Made by a program: the position numbers and the translations under genes. The notes below the pieces were generated by a model that worked only from the letters and a program-made list of their open reading frames with translations, was not told where the DNA came from and made no database searches. This document shows positions 1,475-17,696 of a stretch of DNA of 38,950 nt, in pieces. This DNA is from Campylobacteraceae bacterium (lineage in GTDB: Bacteria; Campylobacterota; Campylobacteria; Campylobacterales; Campylobacteraceae): NCBI GenBank assembly GCA_031274495.1, contig JAISQB010000014.1:1-38950 (forward strand). Direction: 5' to 3'. The number at the start of each line of letters is the position of its first letter. Positions within the stretch are counted from its first letter, which is position 1.

Positions 1475-2098
1475 ATGAAACTTGCGGCTTTTGATTTTGA
1501 CTCTACGCTTATGGATGGAGAGACAATCAATTTTTTGGCAGATGCTTACGGAGTTGGTGACGAAGTGGCAAAACTTACCGCTGAAGCGATGAGGGGTGAG
1601 ATTGATTTTTTTGAGGCACTAAACAGAAGAGTTGCTCTTTTAAAAGGTATGAGTGAGAAAAAAGTTATAAATATATGCGAGAATTTGCCCTATATGCAAG
1701 GCGCCAAAGAGTTGATACAAGAGCTTAAAGATAGGGGTGTCAAAGTGGTGGTATTTAGCGGCGGATTTAGATATGCGACCGATTTTGCGAAAAAAGTCTT
1801 AGGATTTGACGCGGATTTTTCGAATGTTTTGCACGTGAAAAACGGCTCTCTCACCGGACTTGTCGGCGGGGATATGATGTTTGGCTTCTCAAAAGGCGAT
1901 ATGCTTTCGAGGATTCAAACGATACTTGGGGTAGGTATAGAGGAGACCATGTCGGTAGGCGACGGGGCGAATGACGCCTCTATGTTCGAGTTTTCCGGGC
2001 TAAAGATAGCATTTTGCGCGAAAGAGTTTTTGAAAAGCAAGGCAAATGTGATCGTAGACGAAAAAGACTTGAGGGCAATTTTAAATTATGTTTCATAA
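1475..2098 (+). CDS. serB: Phosphoserine phosphatase
   Basis: This 207-residue HAD-family hydrolase performs the last step of serine synthesis, removing phosphate from phosphoserine. Motif I is DFDSTL at residues 6-11 (nucleophile Asp and acid Asp), followed by MDGETINFLA, where Glu typically contacts substrate. Motif II is VVFSGGF near residue 91, and motif III/IV is SVGDGANDASMF near residue 161. It lacks the N-terminal ACT-like extension of larger SerB forms. GGAAAG precedes the ATG. The next gene starts 12 bases downstream; serB-tal adjacency is also seen in C. jejuni. Confidence 0.93.
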   Translation: MKLAAFDFDSTLMDGETINFLADAYGVGDEVAKLTAEAMRGEIDFFEALNRRVALLKGMSEKKVINICENLPYMQGAKELIQELKDRGVKVVVFSGGFRYATDFAKKVLGFDADFSNVLHVKNGSLTGLVGGDMMFGFSKGDMLSRIQTILGVGIEETMSVGDGANDASMFEFSGLKIAFCAKEFLKSKANVIVDEKDLRAILNYVS

Positions 2099-2110
2099 AA
2101 GGAAAATACG

Positions 2111-4618
2111 ATGGCAGTCGGTTCAAGCAATTTTTCTATTTGGTGTGATTTTATTGAGAGAGAATTTTTATCAAAAGAGCTCCCCGCACTTATTGACTCC
2201 GGCATAGTAAGCGGCGTCACAAGCAATCCGGTTATATTCAAAAACGCTATCTTAAGCTCCAAAGCGTACGCGGAAGATAAGAGAAACAGTATAGATTTGC
2301 TCCCAAAAGAGAGGTATGAGTTTTTGGCGGTGAGCGACATCAAAAATACCGCCAAACTCTTAGCCTCCACGCACAGAGCCGATGATCAGGACGGATTTGT
2401 GAGCATAGAGGTAAATCCCCTCTTTTCAGACGACGCCGAAAAGATGGTGGAAGAGGCAAAGCGGCTCTATAAAAAGATAGATATGCCCAACCTTATGATA
2501 AAAGTTCCCGCAACGGACGCGGGGTATGAGACGATAAAAGAGTTAATTATCGAGGGCATCAATGTAAACGCTACGCTTATCTTTTCGCCGCTACAGGCGA
2601 GCAGGTGTTTGCAGGCTATTGAGAATGGATTTTATATATTTCAGCGCAGAAATCCCAAAAAGCCGTTCCCGCAGGCGGTCATCAGCGTATTTGTGAGCCG
2701 ATTTGACAGAAAATTAGACTCCAGACTTGAAGCCGCGGGGCTTGAGAAGATGAAGTTTGGCATTATGAACGCCTCATATATCTATCAACTTGTAAGGGAT
2801 CAGAAGATATCCAATGTAAGGTGTCTTTTCGCAAGCACGGGGGTGAGCGATCCTGCCGTCAACAAGTCGTACTATATCACGAAGTTACTATACAAAAACG
2901 CTATCAATACCGCGCCGTTATCAGCTATAGAGAGCTTTATGGAGGTGCTTGACACCGAAGAGAAGAGCTGTCCTAATAAAGAGAGTATCCAGAGATATTT
3001 TGAAGAGGTGGAGCGAAAAGGGATCGTACTAAAAGAGGTATACGCTTCGCTCCTTGAAGAGGGGCTTGAGCAGTTTAATAAAGCCTACAAAGAGATGATG
3101 GAGAGCTTAAGGGTGACAAACGAGGAGATAGCGAGTATCAAGGCGCAGGAGCGCGCCGAGAGGGAGCGTAAAGAGTTGGAAGCCAGACGAAAAGAGGAAG
3201 AGATGAAAAGAGCGGAAGAGGAGAAGATAGCCGCCCAAAAACTTGAGCGAGAGAGGTTGGAGTGGGAGGCGCACGAAAGGGCGATGGAGGATTTGAAAAG
3301 ACGGGGCGCCGAAGCAAAAAAGGATGTTGATGTGAGCGTAGATGTCAAAGTAAACAGACCCGCCTCAAAAGCAGACGCGAAACAAGTTCCATCACAAGAC
3401 CGCTATAAAAGTCCTATAATGAGGGTTTTGGAGGGGTATCTAAAAGAGCTTATCTCGTACAACGGCAGCGATCTGCACATCAAATCCGACGCGACTGTCA
3501 AAGGGCGCGTGAACGGTGAGATCGTCACAGTCAGCAACAATGTCCTCAAAAAAGAGGAGCTTGACATACTGGCAAGAGAGCTCTTGCAGGATAGATACGA
3601 AGAGTTTACGAAGAAGAAGAATGTGGATTTCACCTATAAACTCGACGACGATTATAGATTTCGCGTCAATATATTTTACCAGACAGACGGCATTTCGTCG
3701 GTATTTCGCGTGATTCCTGTGCATATTCCCACCGTTGAAGACCTTGATCTGCCGCTCATCGTAAAAGAGTTCGCAGGCAAAAGAAGGGGTCTTATATTGG
3801 TCACAGGACCCACGGGAAGCGGCAAAAGCACTACTCTTGCTGCCATCATAAATCTCATAAACCAGACAAGTCAAAAGCATATCATCACCATCGAAGACCC
3901 GATAGAGTTTATCTACAAAGATGATCAAAGTATCGTCAATCAGCGCTCCATCGGTCAAGACGCCGTGAGCTTTTCAGACGCTCTCATAGCCTCTTTGAGG
4001 GAGGATCCTGATGTGATTATGGTGGGCGAGATGAGAGACGCGGAGACTATCCGAACGGCGATCCGCGCCGCGGAAACAGGGCACCTTGTCCTATCCACGC
4101 TGCATACGCTTGACGCCAAAGAGACGGTGGCGCGTATTATCAGTATGTTTGACGGCAATGAACAAAACCAAATCCGCCACTCCTTGGCCTCCGTGCTCCA
4201 AGCGATTATCTCGCAAAGACTCGTCAGACGCAAAAGCGGCAGCGGCGGCAGAGGCAGGGTCGCGGCGATTGAGATTTTAGTCAAAAACGAGCGCATAGAG
4301 GCGATGATAAAGCAAGGCAGGGACGGCGAGATAAAAGACGCTATCGAAGATGACGGCGATGTGTACGGTTCACAAAGCTTCAACCAAGCGCTGCTTGACC
4401 TTTATGTCGGCGACCTTATCAGCTATAGCGAAGCTCTTTACGCGGCGACATCGCCTGCGGATTTGAAGATTTTATTGGACAATCACGACATAGAAAAACA
4501 TACCGGCATCAAAAGAGGCGGCACGAAAAAACATTCGGATTATGAAGATGAAGCGGAGGGGAGCGAGAATGTGACCGTGGACTTGGACGATGATGATATC
4601 TTGTCCTTGAAGCGGTGA
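2111..4618 (+). CDS. Transaldolase-PilT ATPase fusion protein
   Basis: One uninterrupted 835-residue frame holds two proteins that are normally separate. Residues 1-330 are a complete transaldolase close to the Campylobacter form: SGVTSNPVIFKNAI near 34-47, the Schiff-base Lys131 in LMIKVPAT, NVNATLIFS at 151-159, and SVFVSRFDR at 192-200. This enzyme moves dihydroxyacetone units in the pentose phosphate pathway. Residues about 335-405 are a highly charged Glu/Lys/Arg segment likely to form a coiled coil. Residues about 430-790 are a complete PilT/GspE-type retraction ATPase: SDLHIK at 453-458, Walker A GPTGSGKST at 566-574, the Asp box IEDPIEF at 594-600, Walker B VIMVGEMRD at 635-643 and the His box HLVLSTLHT at 658-666. 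The tail is acidic. All key residues look intact in both halves. An internal ATG at 3203 follows GAGGAAGAG and could also yield a free coiled-coil-PilT product. A base-calling error is unlikely, because the linker stays open and is not intergenic-like. Confidence 0.88.
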   Translation: MAVGSSNFSIWCDFIEREFLSKELPALIDSGIVSGVTSNPVIFKNAILSSKAYAEDKRNSIDLLPKERYEFLAVSDIKNTAKLLASTHRADDQDGFVSIEVNPLFSDDAEKMVEEAKRLYKKIDMPNLMIKVPATDAGYETIKELIIEGINVNATLIFSPLQASRCLQAIENGFYIFQRRNPKKPFPQAVISVFVSRFDRKLDSRLEAAGLEKMKFGIMNASYIYQLVRDQKISNVRCLFASTGVSDPAVNKSYYITKLLYKNAINTAPLSAIESFMEVLDTEEKSCPNKESIQRYFEEVERKGIVLKEVYASLLEEGLEQFNKAYKEMMESLRVTNEEIASIKAQERAERERKELEARRKEEEMKRAEEEKIAAQKLERERLEWEAHERAMEDLKRRGAEAKKDVDVSVDVKVNRPASKADAKQVPSQDRYKSPIMRVLEGYLKELISYNGSDLHIKSDATVKGRVNGEIVTVSNNVLKKEELDILARELLQDRYEEFTKKKNVDFTYKLDDDYRFRVNIFYQTDGISSVFRVIPVHIPTVEDLDLPLIVKEFAGKRRGLILVTGPTGSGKSTTLAAIINLINQTSQKHIITIEDPIEFIYKDDQSIVNQRSIGQDAVSFSDALIASLREDPDVIMVGEMRDAETIRTAIRAAETGHLVLSTLHTLDAKETVARIISMFDGNEQNQIRHSLASVLQAIISQRLVRRKSGSGGRGRVAAIEILVKNERIEAMIKQGRDGEIKDAIEDDGDVYGSQSFNQALLDLYVGDLISYSEALYAATSPADLKILLDNHDIEKHTGIKRGGTKKHSDYEDEAEGSENVTVDLDDDDILSLKR

Positions 4619-4680: not shown

Positions 4681-5217
4681 ATGTTAGAAGGCATCCTAAG
4701 AGAGAGTATCGATAGAAAGTCGTTGAGAACGCTTAGACGAGATGGTTATCTGATTGCCAATATTTACGCAAAAGGCTTCGAGAATATCCACGCAGCGTTC
4801 AAAGAGAACGAATTTATCAAGGCTGTACGCAAGAAAGAGGGACTCATTTTCCCCGTGAAAGTCGGCGAAAAAGTACACAATGTAATCATCCAAGAGTACC
4901 AAAAAGAGCCTGTTACCAACAGACTTTTACACGTAGACTTGAAAGTGGCGCTTCCGGGCGTAGTTACAAAGTATATGGTTCCTGTTGTCACAAAAGGCAT
5001 AGCAAAAGGCGTTAAAGATAAGGGCGTTTTGGTTATATCCAAAAGAAGACTCGGCGTAAAATGCGCGGCTGAAAATCTTCCAAACGCGTTCGAGCTTGAT
5101 GTAAGCGAGCTTGGCGTTGGGGATTCGCTTCTTGTAAGAGATATCAAAGTAAGCGGCAATGTAAAAATCGTAGAGGCAGACAGAGTTGCCGTCGCAGGCG
5201 TTATCAAAGCGCAATAA
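4681..5217 (+). CDS. rplY: 50S ribosomal protein L25 (CTC/TL5 form)
   Basis: The 178-residue length indicates the long two-domain L25 (TL5/CTC type): an N-terminal 5S-rRNA-binding domain of about 95 residues and a C-terminal beta domain. The start reads [10 protein letters not shown]; the [10 protein letters not shown] segment near residue 85 marks the end of the first domain, and the second ends with [19 protein letters not shown] precedes the ATG. pth begins 3 bases after the stop, so the pair is probably co-transcribed, as in many bacteria. Confidence 0.93.
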
Positions 5218-5220
5218 CAT

Positions 5221-5790
5221 ATGTTTCTGTTTGTAGGTCTTGGAAATCCTACCCGAAACTATATAAACACAAGACACAATATAGGCTTTAAAGTGATAGA
5301 CGCGCTAAGCGCTCACTTTAAAGCTTCCCACATCTCAAAACCCCAATTTCAAGGCGACCTTTTCAAAGCCTCAAATAACCTTTTCTTAAAACCGCTCACA
5401 TATATGAACAACTCCGGTCAAAGCGTCAGCGCCGTCGCCAATTTTTACAAACCCGATGAAATCATAGTCATCCACGACGACATAGCCATACCGCTTGGAA
5501 GCGTGCGCATAAAACGCGGAGGCTCCAGCGGCGGGCATAACGGACTAAAGTCTATAGATGCGCATATCGGGGCGGATTATATAAGGGTGCGTTTGGGTGT
5601 TGGCACGCCAAGATTTGAACAAGACGCGGTCAATTTTGTACTATCCGACTTTTCAAAAGAGGAGAGCCCTTGCGTCCAAAAGCTCATAGACTACGCCGCG
5701 CTTATCTGTGAAGAGCTGCTCACCAAAAGCTTTGATGAGGTAAACCAAAAGTATGTCTCCAAAAAAGGAATCTGCGCCGAAAATGGTTAA
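5221..5790 (+). CDS. pth: Peptidyl-tRNA hydrolase
   Basis: This 189-residue Pth recycles peptidyl-tRNA released from stalled ribosomes. It shows GLGNPTRNYINTRHNIGF near residues 6-23, with the catalytic His in TRHNIGF; PLTYMNNSG near residue 59 with the substrate-binding Asn; IHDDIAIPLG near 80-89 with the catalytic Asp; and GGSSGGHNGLKSI near 97-109. Its length is standard. No strong Shine-Dalgarno is visible, so translation is likely coupled to rplY, which ends 3 bases upstream. Its last codons overlap the start of lptG. Confidence 0.95.
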   Translation: MFLFVGLGNPTRNYINTRHNIGFKVIDALSAHFKASHISKPQFQGDLFKASNNLFLKPLTYMNNSGQSVSAVANFYKPDEIIVIHDDIAIPLGSVRIKRGGSSGGHNGLKSIDAHIGADYIRVRLGVGTPRFEQDAVNFVLSDFSKEESPCVQKLIDYAALICEELLTKSFDEVNQKYVSKKGICAENG

Positions 5791-6895: not shown

Positions 6896-8074
6896 ATGAA
6901 AGAGAGCTTCAAAAAATCCATCGAAAACGCCCGCATAGTGGCTCTTGGCGAAAATTCGCACTTCATAAAAGAGTTTTTTGTCTTGCGCAAAGAGATAGTG
7001 GAATTCTTGGTCGAAGAGTGCGGATTTGGCGTTTTGGCGTTTGAATTTGGCTTTTCGGAAGGGTTAGAGATCGACAAATGGATAAAAGGGCAAGGGGATG
7101 AGGGCGACATCAAAAAACATCTTTTGCACTTTTACTACCCCAAAGAGTGGGAAGATACCCTTTTGTGGCTTAGAAAATACAATAAAGCTTCGCGCAAAAA
7201 GGTGGATTTTTTAGGCGTTGATCTGCCAAGAAACGGCGGCTCGTACTTCCCTTCACTAAAAATCGTACATAAATTTATAAAAAAATATGACGAAAGCGCC
7301 GCCTTTTTGTCGGAGCGCGCTTTTGCATTGGCATCAAAACTTGACGGCTACTCCACCGCGCAAGCCGCATTGGCGTTGCAAAATATCAGGGTAGAAGTTA
7401 GAAACGAGCTAACCACACTCTTGACGCGCCTACTCATCCGTCTTGAGATTATGCAGCCTCAGATAACGCAAAAAACATCCGAAGAGCGCTTCAATATAGC
7501 CCTTTTACACCTTAAGAGTATTTTTTATACAGACTATAATATCCAAGCTATGGCGGGTTTTATCGGCGGTTTTGGGCTAAGCGGGGATATGGGGGCTAAG
7601 GATAAATTTATGGCGGATGTGGTGAAGGCGCGGATTAAAGAGGCGCAAAAAATGATATTGATAGCCCACAATGCACATATACAAAAAGAGCCGGCATTCT
7701 ACAAAAGCTTTTTAAGCTGCGTTACTATGGGGCAGCGATTGGCGCAGAGTTTTGGGGATGGTTACCGTGCCTATGCTATCAGTTGCGAGAGCGGTTTTAC
7801 AGCGGCGTTGTATCCTGATGAGAGCCAAAAATTTGGCTTTCGCGTGGACAACTATAAACTACGCCCCTCCGTCAAAGGCACTATAGAGTTTTGGCTAAAA
7901 GAGGCGGGCATAAAGCAGGGCTTTGTCGATTTTGCAGATATAGAAGCCAAAATTTTGCCAAACAAAATCCGCTTTGACTCTATGCATCTGAAGACCGATA
8001 TGAAAAAGGCGTTTGACGGTATATTTATCCTGCCCAAAAGTACCGTGTCGGAAGTTGTGACAAAAAACGGCTAA
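6896..8074 (+). CDS. Erythromycin esterase-like hydrolase
   Basis: This 392-residue protein matches the EreA/ChaN-like erythromycin esterase superfamily. It has an early ALGENSHFIKEF motif (residues 15-26; Glu and His are metal/catalytic residues in the family), FEFGFSEGLEIDKW near 48-61, VDFLGVDLPR near 101-110, the DKFMADVV segment near 238-245, and IAHNAHIQKEP near 258-268 with paired His. AAAAGGA precedes the ATG. Homologues include macrolide esterases, but many members have unknown substrates, and nothing nearby indicates an antibiotic resistance island. It sits as a single gene between lptG and lysA, where C. jejuni has lptG directly before lysA, so it is probably a lineage-specific acquisition. 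Confidence 0.78.
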   Translation: MKESFKKSIENARIVALGENSHFIKEFFVLRKEIVEFLVEECGFGVLAFEFGFSEGLEIDKWIKGQGDEGDIKKHLLHFYYPKEWEDTLLWLRKYNKASRKKVDFLGVDLPRNGGSYFPSLKIVHKFIKKYDESAAFLSERAFALASKLDGYSTAQAALALQNIRVEVRNELTTLLTRLLIRLEIMQPQITQKTSEERFNIALLHLKSIFYTDYNIQAMAGFIGGFGLSGDMGAKDKFMADVVKARIKEAQKMILIAHNAHIQKEPAFYKSFLSCVTMGQRLAQSFGDGYRAYAISCESGFTAALYPDESQKFGFRVDNYKLRPSVKGTIEFWLKEAGIKQGFVDFADIEAKILPNKIRFDSMHLKTDMKKAFDGIFILPKSTVSEVVTKNG

Positions 8075-13993: not shown

Positions 13994-14023
13994 GCCATAT
14001 TTAAGTCTTCAAAGGATATGGCA

Positions 14024-14869
14024 ATGAAAGAGCAAGCTCAGATCAATAGGAAAAATCCTACTGCGTTTTTATTTGTTGTGGATCAGTCGCTCTCTATGGG
14101 GTACGTGATGCCATCTGTAAATAAACCAAAAGCCAAGCACGTGGCAGATGTCATCAACCGGACGATTTTGAACCTGATAGACCTTTGCAACAAAGCAGAC
14201 GGCATACGAGACTATTTTCATATAGGTATCATAGGCTATAACGGCAAAGGCGCTAAAAATGCCCTTTTTGATGAAATTGATAAGCCTATCTTAAGCTATA
14301 TATCCGAAGTTGCCGCCAATGTAAAAAAGGTGGAACATATAACAGAAAAGGTAGACAACGGTCTTGGCGAGATAGTAGATAAGGTCGTGGAATTTCCCGT
14401 ATGGATGGAGGCTGACGCTGACGGTGAGACTCCTATGTGCGAAGCTTTCGGATTGGCGAGGGAGACGCTTGAAGAGTGGTGCAAAGATAATCCGGACTCT
14501 TATCCCCCGACACTCATCCACATTACGGACGGCGACTCCACGGACGGCAATCCGCAAGAGTTGGCGGAGAGCATCAAAAGGCTTGGCACGATATACGGCA
14601 CCGCGCTTATCTTCAATCTTCACGTAAGTTCGTTTGACACAAATACGATAGAGTATCCATCAAACGACAACAGCATAAAAGACGAATACGCCAAAATGCT
14701 CTTTAAAATGTCCAGCATTTTTCCCGAACATCTCATAGGCAAGGCGAGCGATAGAGGTTACAGAGTTGTCAATAACTCAAGAGGTTTTATATTTAACGCG
14801 GATGCCGTTGATATCGTAAATTTCCTTGAGATAGGCACGCTGCCCACAAATCCCTACAAAAGACGATAG
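14024..14869 (+). CDS. VWA-domain protein, TerY-like (triad gene 1)
   Basis: A 281-residue single von Willebrand factor A domain with an intact metal-ion-dependent adhesion site: DxSxS as D20-Q-S22-L-S24, Thr136 in DGETPMCEAF, and Asp169 in HITDGDSTDG. The DGETPM and ITDGDSTDG forms are typical of TerY-like proteins. There is no signal peptide or membrane helix, so it is cytoplasmic. ATG 14024 is preferred over 14018 because AAAGGA sits 7 bases before it. The PP2C-like gene starts 8 bases after the stop and the kinase gene follows, giving the VWA-PP2C-kinase set described as the TerY-P triad linked to tellurite/stress systems. Its binding partner is unknown. Confidence 0.85.
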   Translation: MKEQAQINRKNPTAFLFVVDQSLSMGYVMPSVNKPKAKHVADVINRTILNLIDLCNKADGIRDYFHIGIIGYNGKGAKNALFDEIDKPILSYISEVAANVKKVEHITEKVDNGLGEIVDKVVEFPVWMEADADGETPMCEAFGLARETLEEWCKDNPDSYPPTLIHITDGDSTDGNPQELAESIKRLGTIYGTALIFNLHVSSFDTNTIEYPSNDNSIKDEYAKMLFKMSSIFPEHLIGKASDRGYRVVNNSRGFIFNADAVDIVNFLEIGTLPTNPYKRR

Positions 14870-14877
14870 GGCGTCTG

Positions 14878-15615
14878 ATGGAGCTACTGTTTTGCGGCTC
14901 GATACCAAAAAGCGACGATAAGCCGCACGAGAACGAAGACTATTACAATATCGGCATAGCCGACGAAAATGTACGCATAGCCCTAAGCGACGGCGCTACC
15001 GTTTCGTATGACTCCAAAAGATGGGCGAAGGCTGTGGCGGACTATTTTGTCAAAAGAGGGCTTATCTCCAACAAAGATATAGACAAACTCATCAAAACCT
15101 ACTACTCCCACCGTTTCGACTTCAAAAATCTCACGCTCTTCCAAAGAAGGGGGCTTAGATTTGGCTCGTATGCTACGATACTTGGCATAGAGTATGACTT
15201 TGATACGAACTTTTTGCAGATCGTAAGCGTCGGGGACAGCGTTGCGGTTTTGTTGGACGGGGATAGATTTGTAGACTCTTTTCCGTATAGCTTAGCAAGC
15301 GAGTTTAGAAAAGACCCAAAACTTTTGAGCACGAAAAAGAGGCACAACTGCTTCTTCTCCCGCTCCAAAAAGTACGGTAAATTTTATAAAGTCTGGAATC
15401 TTAACTCCACCTCCGCTCCCATACTCCTTTGTATGACGGACGCGCTCTCAGAGTTTGCGTTCAAGTCGTACGAGAGGGGCAACAAGGATGTGTGGCAAGA
15501 GATCGCCGGTATAAAAACTATGCAAGAATTTAAAAGTTTTATCGAAGAAAAGCGCAGGGATAAAACTATGAAGATAGACGATACTACACTTATTTGCGCA
15601 AATTTTAAAGGATAA
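14878..15615 (+). CDS. PP2C-like protein phosphatase (triad gene 2)
   Basis: A 245-residue PP2C/PPM-type Ser/Thr phosphatase without membrane segments. Metal- and phosphate-site motifs appear in order: HENEDYY at 18-24, ALSDGAT at 35-41, GSYATILG at 96-103, VSVGDSVAVLL at 117-126, CMTDALSEF at 185-193 and DDTTLICA at 234-241. The usual TDG is TDA here, with Asp188 kept, so activity is plausible. It probably reverses phosphorylation by the kinase two bases downstream. AGGG lies before the ATG. The kinase Shine-Dalgarno AAAGGA overlaps the end of this gene, so the two are likely translated together. Confidence 0.83.
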   Translation: MELLFCGSIPKSDDKPHENEDYYNIGIADENVRIALSDGATVSYDSKRWAKAVADYFVKRGLISNKDIDKLIKTYYSHRFDFKNLTLFQRRGLRFGSYATILGIEYDFDTNFLQIVSVGDSVAVLLDGDRFVDSFPYSLASEFRKDPKLLSTKKRHNCFFSRSKKYGKFYKVWNLNSTSAPILLCMTDALSEFAFKSYERGNKDVWQEIAGIKTMQEFKSFIEEKRRDKTMKIDDTTLICANFKG

Positions 15616-15617
15616 AA

Positions 15618-17696
15618 ATGCCGCTAAACTACCCAAATTCACACGACTACAGAGCGGCTTTTCAATATATACGGGAGAGTTTGACAGACCCTGTCTTGAA
15701 AGAGGGCTTTGTCAAGACTAATGTGTTAGGGCCGCAAGTCTTTAGCGGCAATTTCGCATACGCGTATGAGATCACCTCTTTGTATAGGATAAAGTACGCC
15801 GTGCGCTGCTTCCGTTACTATTCAAAAGACCGCGAGGAGCGCTATGTCGCTATATCGAGATTTTTAAAGCAGCTCAAATCTTACTACTTTGTAGATTTTG
15901 AATACCAAACCAAAGGCATCACCATACGGGGTATCAAATACCCTATCGTCAAAATGGCGTGGGTGGACGGCGATTTGCTGGGGCAATTCATAGCCGACAA
16001 CCACTCCCACCGCCGCCGCCTGAAAAATCTCATCAGCTCACTCATCGAGCTTGCAAGGTTCATCGAACACCACAACTTCGCGCACGGAGATATACAGCCA
16101 GGAAACATCATAGTCAACAACGACGGTAAAGATTTGAAACTCATCGACTACGACGGCATATATGTCAAAGAGCTTCAAAGCTTCGGCAACTGCGAGTGCG
16201 GCACACCCAATTTTCAGCACCCAAAAAGAGAGAACGCGTGGAACGCGAAGCTGGATAGATTTGCCTTTATAGCTCTTTATGTCGCGCTAAACGCGCTTGT
16301 GGAGCGCTACTCTTTGTGGGAAGAGCTCTCTTGCGATGCTGAATCTATCATCTTTGTGGCGGCGGACTATGAGGATACGAAAAATTCAAAAGCTTTTCAC
16401 AAACTCTTGCAAATTGAAAATATAAAAAAAGATGTGCAAAAGTTCCAAAGAATTTGCGAATCCTCTTTCCGTAAAATCCCCTCGCTTGATGATTTTATCG
16501 CGGGTAAAAATATCCCACACTATTACAAAACAAGCAAACTGGTCTACGCCGCCAGCGCCATCATCGCACTTGGAGCACTCACGATATACTTTTTGGAGCA
16601 CAACTATACGGTAGATGAGATGGGCGAAAAAGCCTCAAAGATAAAAGAGTTTTTTGTAAGCCAAGATGATGAGTTAAAAATTCCAAAAGTTGTAGCCGAA
16701 CTCCCGCGCAAAACGGAGCCGATCTTGCGTACAGCGAAGGATTACGCCTCTACGATTAAACAGCTCGACGACCTGCACTCGCAACTGCCAAACGACAACG
16801 ATATCACGCTGCTCACCGCCGTGACATACGCCATAAGCGGTTACGATGACGATAGACTCGCCGCTCTCATAGGTCCGCTGAATGAGAAAAAGATGGAGGA
16901 CTCGAGGCTCTACTTTGTGTTATCAGCGCTTAATTGGCGCAAAAACGATATCGAAAAGGCGAGCTTCTTTTTGGATTTGGCAATAGGCGACCAGCATATG
17001 GATGATAAACTTAAAAAGATAGCCCTGCCGCTTAGCAACATTATAAAAGCAGAGTTAAACTCGCATAACCGTTACAAAAATACCCAAGGGTTTGATGAGC
17101 GGGGCGGCAAGGCGTTTGCATTGGCGATGTTGAAGTGGGAAAATAGCCACGCACAGCAGTTTAATGAACTCTACCTAAACGGCTTTATCGGTTTTTCCAA
17201 CGAGTATCCGTTTGATATCACGAACCAATCGTTCACGGAGTGGTTTGATGCGTATATGGGTTACAATATGGGCAAGAGCCTGAAAATGCTCATCAATCTG
17301 TACGAAAAGTACCCCAAAAACGCGAATCTTTTGTATCGGATAGTGGTCAATGTCGCAAGTTTGTATGTGGAGGGCAGCGAGGGCAAATGCTATTTTCGCC
17401 GCGACAAATATCTGAAAGTCGCCAAAGAGCTCAAGCAAGAGTCGGTGATGCCGAGTGCAAAAAGCGCCGTCGGTTTTGCCAAACAGCTGGTCGATCTACA
17501 CTTTTCGCAGGGGCAAAGCTACTACGCGCTCGCCCTTGCCTACTACGCGAATGATGAATTTGACATCGCGGAGGGCATCGCAAATATCGCCAAGATAAAA
17601 TTGACGCAAAACGACACGGACGAGACAAAAAAGCAGATCGAAGCGCTTTTGAAAAACATCAGCGACAGCAAATCGTGCAGACAAAACAGCTCGTAA
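15618..17696 (+). CDS. Membrane-anchored protein kinase with helical repeat tail (triad gene 3)
   Basis: A 692-residue protein. Residues about 35-300 are a protein-kinase-like domain: loop GPQVFSGNFAYAYEI at 38-52, strand YAVRCF at 60-65, catalytic loop HGDIQPGNII at 156-165 (D158, N163), and metal loop DYDG at 177-180 followed by GTPNFQHP at 195-202. The usual beta-3 Lys position is Arg63. Residues about 308-326 form one transmembrane helix, so the kinase faces the cytoplasm and the roughly 365-residue tail faces the periplasm. The tail is alpha-helical with TPR/Sel1-like character, suggesting a sensor or docking surface. Kinases with HGD and DYDG followed by a (N/P)xxQHP segment are known partners of PP2C and VWA genes. 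The gene ends at the edge of a repeat cluster. Confidence 0.84.
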   Translation: MPLNYPNSHDYRAAFQYIRESLTDPVLKEGFVKTNVLGPQVFSGNFAYAYEITSLYRIKYAVRCFRYYSKDREERYVAISRFLKQLKSYYFVDFEYQTKGITIRGIKYPIVKMAWVDGDLLGQFIADNHSHRRRLKNLISSLIELARFIEHHNFAHGDIQPGNIIVNNDGKDLKLIDYDGIYVKELQSFGNCECGTPNFQHPKRENAWNAKLDRFAFIALYVALNALVERYSLWEELSCDAESIIFVAADYEDTKNSKAFHKLLQIENIKKDVQKFQRICESSFRKIPSLDDFIAGKNIPHYYKTSKLVYAASAIIALGALTIYFLEHNYTVDEMGEKASKIKEFFVSQDDELKIPKVVAELPRKTEPILRTAKDYASTIKQLDDLHSQLPNDNDITLLTAVTYAISGYDDDRLAALIGPLNEKKMEDSRLYFVLSALNWRKNDIEKASFFLDLAIGDQHMDDKLKKIALPLSNIIKAELNSHNRYKNTQGFDERGGKAFALAMLKWENSHAQQFNELYLNGFIGFSNEYPFDITNQSFTEWFDAYMGYNMGKSLKMLINLYEKYPKNANLLYRIVVNVASLYVEGSEGKCYFRRDKYLKVAKELKQESVMPSAKSAVGFAKQLVDLHFSQGQSYYALALAYYANDEFDIAEGIANIAKIKLTQNDTDETKKQIEALLKNISDSKSCRQNSS

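Follow-up and report, generated by a model that had tools for sequence, protein, structure and literature searches.

A transaldolase joined in frame to a PilT2-type ATPase in a lineage of Campylobacteraceae

The window, by which we mean the whole 38,950-nucleotide stretch of Campylobacteraceae DNA analysed here, is one contig of a 1.8 Mb genome that is 99% complete and assembled in 97 contigs. Positions 2111..4618 of its forward strand, on which all the window features described below also lie, form one uninterrupted frame of 835 amino acids closed by a TGA stop, with no internal stops on reading of the ORF. The product comprises a transaldolase, a linker and a PilT2-type ATPase, and a Shine-Dalgarno-like AAGGA, read from the sequence, is found at 2099..2103, 7 bases 5′ of the start codon. 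The transaldolase domain occupies residues 10-332 (2138..3106) and the PilT-family ATPase domain residues 439-795 (3425..4495). Both exceed curated cut-offs within this single frame, which bears out the in-frame fusion that had been proposed from the letters of the sequence. The ATPase domain is followed by an acidic C-terminal tail, identified by alignment (residues 796-835, 4496..4615), which ends in DDDDILSLKR; similar tails (..DIxxLK) are present in many separate tal-linked PilTs. Upstream, at 1475..2098, lies a serB-like gene encoding a 207-residue HAD phosphatase (Pfam Hydrolase/HAD). Downstream are the Pfam-assigned genes rplY (ribosomal protein L25/TL5, 4681..5217), whose position is shared by fused and most separate loci checked, and pth (peptidyl-tRNA hydrolase, 5221..5790). 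The serB gene precedes the fusion in every fused locus that extends far enough, as well as in many separate-gene relatives, and the position of tal after serB noted earlier is thus a conserved one.

The N-terminal half matches the Pfam family TAL_FSA (PF00923) at 244.5 bits against a cut-off of 27, over profile positions 1-284 of 285, and the NCBIfam transaldolase model PRK03903 / NF003026 at 403 against a cut-off of 344, over practically the full profile. The Schiff-base Lys131 (2501..2503), placed by aligning the MIKVPAT motif to solved transaldolases, sits in an LMIKVPAT motif that starts at residue 128. It is invariant in all 14 fusions described below, as are D13, N39, E100, T155, S192, R197 and S242, which we take to correspond to the active-site positions of E. 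coli TalB. In common with the stand-alone transaldolases of Campylobacterota (NF003026 / PRK03903), the fused enzyme possesses the whole domain, Lys131 and the other motif residues and the serB-tal position; it differs in forming the N-terminal half of a larger polypeptide instead of a free protein. The transaldolase is likewise the N-terminal half of the bifunctional transaldolase/phosphoglucose isomerase (NF007080, PRK09533), although the partner there is a metabolic enzyme, unlike the PilT-family motor found here. The window protein falls outside that family, scoring 227.6 against a cut-off of 712 and matching only positions 11-406 of a profile of 949. A search of the window's genome for a second transaldolase-family gene returned none, and a transketolase gene is present.

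The C-terminal half contains a T2SSE domain at residues 433-711 (Pfam, 181.8 bits against a cut-off of 24.9) and matches the PilT/PilU family model TIGR01420 at residues 440-784 (NCBIfam, 421 against a cut-off of 319.1; E-value 3.7e-126; profile 2-343 of 343). All of the ATPase motifs are present, namely Walker A GPTGSGKST (residues 566-574, 3806..3832), an Asp box ITIEDPIEF and, by motif alignment, Walker B IMVGEMRD (residues 636-643, 4016..4039) and a His box HLVLSTLHT (residues 658-666, 4082..4108). These boxes and Lys131 are as the sequence-only reading had listed them. The motifs are kept across the fused clade except for minor hydrophobic changes and for position 570 of Walker A, which is Ser or Cys among homologues, the rest of Walker A being invariant.

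The same reading had taken this half for the PilT of pilus retraction. Its assignment to the PilT family holds, but the domain is not the canonical orthologue, since the best match to canonical PilT in the genome is a free gene on another contig (G000:C65, 8873-9946; L107) that encodes a PilT of 358 amino acids. This free protein matches Geobacter PilT4 with an E-value of 1.4e-109 and Pseudomonas PilT with 9.4e-106, compared with 2e-77 and 2.7e-76 for the fused domain. The closest match of the fused domain is instead Thermus PilT2 (E-value 3.4e-87), with which it is 46% identical in the fold comparison. Both paralogues occur together in 17 of the 18 genomes searched, the exception being G011, which is 66% complete. 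This co-occurrence, together with the greater closeness of the free C65 gene to canonical PilT, identifies the fused motor as a PilT2-type paralogue and the old second PilT of Campylobacterales, with canonical PilT remaining free. Thermus thermophilus PilT2 (5fl3) is also the nearest solved structure, and the fused domain shares with it the fold and the Walker A, Asp, Walker B and His boxes. Fold and family are common to canonical PilT (Geobacter PilT4, Pseudomonas PilT) too, although the canonical copy is a separate gene here, and the fused protein departs from the TIGR01420 PilT/PilU ATPases in that a transaldolase and a linker replace the usual PilT start region. PilU and Neisseria PilT-2 are, like the fused motor, second PilT-family ATPases that accompany PilT in one genome, and PilU functions only when PilT is present (PMC6762196). 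By analogy with PilU, the tal-linked paralogue may also act together with PilT, though the sequence of the fused domain is not specifically PilU-like. Elsewhere in the window's genome, contig C75 carries a PilB-PilC-secretin cluster and contig C95 a cluster for type II secretion. A PilT-family protein of 538 amino acids that is not linked to tal and carries an N-terminal extension of ~170 residues was also observed in another family of the order (L145, G359:C1:718500-722000, minus strand).

The two halves are joined by residues 335-438 (3113..3424), of which 51% are D, E, K or R. The linker is therefore charged, as the sequence-only reading described it, and at ~104 residues it is somewhat longer than the roughly 75-100 given there. 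A structure was predicted with AlphaFold2 from 70 aligned sequences, an alignment of 14 having given a poor pLDDT of 61.5, and the resulting model has a mean pLDDT of 89 and a pTM of 0.55; with a pTM this low, the relative placement of the two halves is not predicted. In the model, a transaldolase barrel leads into a helix of ~60 residues (337-398), which is followed by disorder at 398-427 and then by a PilT fold (428-798); the acidic tail is loose and is of low confidence at residues 804-822. Foldseek matched the model to PilT structures, with TM-scores on the target of up to 0.93 (0.88 for Thermus PilT2 5fl3), and to the Neisseria transaldolase (3clm/7oey), with TM-scores of 0.85-0.86. The linker of the window protein contains many opposite charges paired at i,i+4, a pattern that holds in the window's subgroup and is less evident in L008-L010, L017 and L047. 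A helical spacer is thus likely for the window protein, on the strength of the model and the charge pattern, and uncertain for the others.

The fused set comprises 14 proteins, 13 from the genus of the window (g1) and one from G011, a genome of a related genus, on the same contig as L047. Intact fusions are carried by 13 of the 14 genomes of the genus, the gene in the remaining one (G042) being interrupted by contig ends, and the G011 protein has 770 amino acids counted from Met and a shorter linker. Identity to the window protein falls in successive groups from 80-82% to 68-69% and 59%. Conservation within the fusion is lowest in the linker, which ranges from 49 to 141 residues among homologues, always changing in frame. 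In pairwise comparisons the transaldolase and PilT halves have median dN/dS values of 0.07 and 0.06, the linker 0.16 and the tail 0.13; these are rough figures, since many pairs approach saturation at synonymous sites. Both halves, with their motifs intact, are under strong purifying selection. The sequence-only reading had named, as evidence that would refute a fusion, a stop codon and a start of its own for the second gene within residues 330-430 of related genomes. Such a break is absent throughout the fused clade and present in all more distant relatives inspected, a distribution that shows where the fusion arose. The transaldolase, PilT and combined trees each place the 14 proteins in one clade (SH-aLRT 99, 100 and 100), and a single change of state suffices on all three, so that several independent fusion events need not be invoked. 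A junction query of 399 genomes from 88 genera, a sample that lists neither the other g1 genomes nor G011, gave a junction-spanning match only in the window's own genome. Candidate fusions elsewhere in Campylobacterales fell away, as every long open frame fetched proved to be two genes split by a stop. All carriers of the fusion are metagenome-assembled genomes (MAGs), and to judge from the sample-style names of the nearest relatives (Gx485_bin81, Nc350_bin201, Cd354_bin15) they are probably uncultured Campylobacteraceae from termite guts. They probably stem from a termite survey that reports Campylobacterales MAGs (PMC9137090), the text of which lacks these bin names.

The other Campylobacterales inspected have tal and pilT side by side as separate genes, for the most part arranged as metF(-) serB tal pilT rplY pth. 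In 12 of 24 separate loci, which were selected on score irrespective of frame, tal and pilT share a frame and are parted only by the tal stop, which lies 3-15 bases 5′ of the pilT start. Loss of a single stop codon would therefore explain the origin of the fusion, and we hold with very high confidence that it was made once, by stop loss between operon neighbours, and then kept. Campylobacterales have long had a second PilT paralogue adjoining tal (L020-L034, L067-L075). In several separate loci the tal stop overlaps the Shine-Dalgarno site of pilT (TAAGGAG), an arrangement that suggests translational coupling of tal and pilT predating any fusion.

The account that we favour, at a probability of about 0.6, is that of a bifunctional chain that merely tethers the transaldolase to an accessory pilus motor, with no new chemistry required. 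In the ancestor of the Campylobacteraceae lineages g1 and g11, tal and the second, PilT2-type pilT were neighbours in a serB-tal-pilT-rplY-pth array. Loss of the tal stop turned two frames into one gene, the junction becoming a charged linker, now of 49-141 residues and helical in the model. One polypeptide of ~95 kDa would be made, in which the N-terminal barrel would serve as the cell's only transaldolase, while the C-terminal half would assemble as a PilT-family hexamer and work as an accessory motor alongside the free canonical PilT. With the linker acting as a spacer, six transaldolases could be carried outside the ring, neither activity being blocked, and the main consequence would be that the two activities are supplied in a fixed 1:1 ratio and physically tethered. 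That both halves are active in one chain is put forward with moderate confidence, and any regulatory link between them with low confidence.

An alternative to this bifunctional chain, unlikely although not negligible, is that the gene yields two products, the full-length fusion and a free PilT2 started within the linker, which would give mixed hexamers bearing fewer than six transaldolases. The sequence-only reading had proposed such a start at Met365 (3203..3205). This in-frame ATG does exist and is preceded by a GAGGAAGAG site, and in L008, L009 and L011 the Shine-Dalgarno-like sites before an in-frame linker ATG (dG -14.2, -12.4 and -12.0) are stronger than the one at the window's actual tal start (-5.6), making species-specific shorter products possible. 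However, the position of the start is not conserved: besides the window protein, only those of L006 and L007 have a Met aligned with Met365, the linkers of L010 and L047 are devoid of ATG, and the linker ATGs of L016 all lack a Shine-Dalgarno-like site. Such matches occur at 38% of the positions of the window's linker, and shuffling of synonymous codons gives an equally strong site in 47% of trials for the window and in 12-100% across the genes tested. The abundant GAG and GAA codons of a Glu-rich segment thus account for these sites as a by-product of coding. Synonymous divergence of the linker is, moreover, not clearly lowered in close pairs, and a conserved internal start is not supported by the sequences. 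Equally dependent on the linker, and still less probable, is a post-translational cut that would release two ordinary proteins. The exposed, charged linker with its disordered stretch at 398-427 could offer a site for such a cut, yet the alignment contains no conserved cleavage motif and the linker differs strongly between subclades.

It is doubtful, at a likelihood between those of dual products and of cleavage, that the fusion reflects selection for a functional coupling, in which the motor is modulated by carbon flux or by the substrate state of the transaldolase, or itself positions the transaldolase at the pole or membrane. In its strongest form, which we regard as equally doubtful, the transaldolase would be an obligate subunit of the pilus motor, six copies standing on helical arms round a PilT2 hexamer, with carbon metabolism coupled to, or positioned by, the retraction machine. 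The sequence-only reading had likewise suggested that retraction might be tied to carbon status or transaldolase assembled on a ring; neither idea gained support from the analysis or was contradicted by it. None of the intact members has reverted, even though the synonymous divergence of the clade is nearly saturated, and the linker is long and helical in the model. Against this, the protein has no sensory domain, the linker is its least constant part and spans 49-141 residues, and a free canonical PilT remains; furthermore, the neighbourhood is older than the fusion, so that an accident within an operon is enough to explain it. Persistence through a deep clade nevertheless leaves room for some benefit of joining, weakly conserved as the linker is. 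An artefact of assembly or binning, or a stop codon lost through sequencing error, might be suspected where all sequences come from MAGs, but has a negligible probability. It is refuted by independent genomes, with 13 full-length fusions in the genus and one in another, their linkers differing and their flanks conserved. The 1580 linker codons of the 14 sequences contain no in-frame stop, compared with 2-17 stops per linker in each of the two remaining forward frames, which excludes error of this kind.

A literature search on transaldolase with PilT and fusion returned only unrelated papers, with no earlier report of this combination in the library searched. The locus is a clear-cut example of two unrelated genes, neighbours in an operon, that were joined once and stayed joined through a whole lineage, and it adds a domain architecture in which a PilT-type motor apparently tolerates a 330-residue enzyme on its N-terminus. 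It also offers a natural system for asking whether the tal-linked second PilT of Campylobacterota relates to sugar metabolism.

Two further features of the window fall outside this locus. An erythromycin-esterase family protein (PF05139, 1.3e-37), with a putative role in resistance, is encoded at 6896-8074 between an lptG-like gene and lysA. At 14018-17693, adjacent genes for TerY (3.9e-105), a PP2C phosphatase (1.2e-67) and an STK_OB kinase (5e-111) match the TerY-P triad of PADLOC and constitute a candidate anti-phage defence system.
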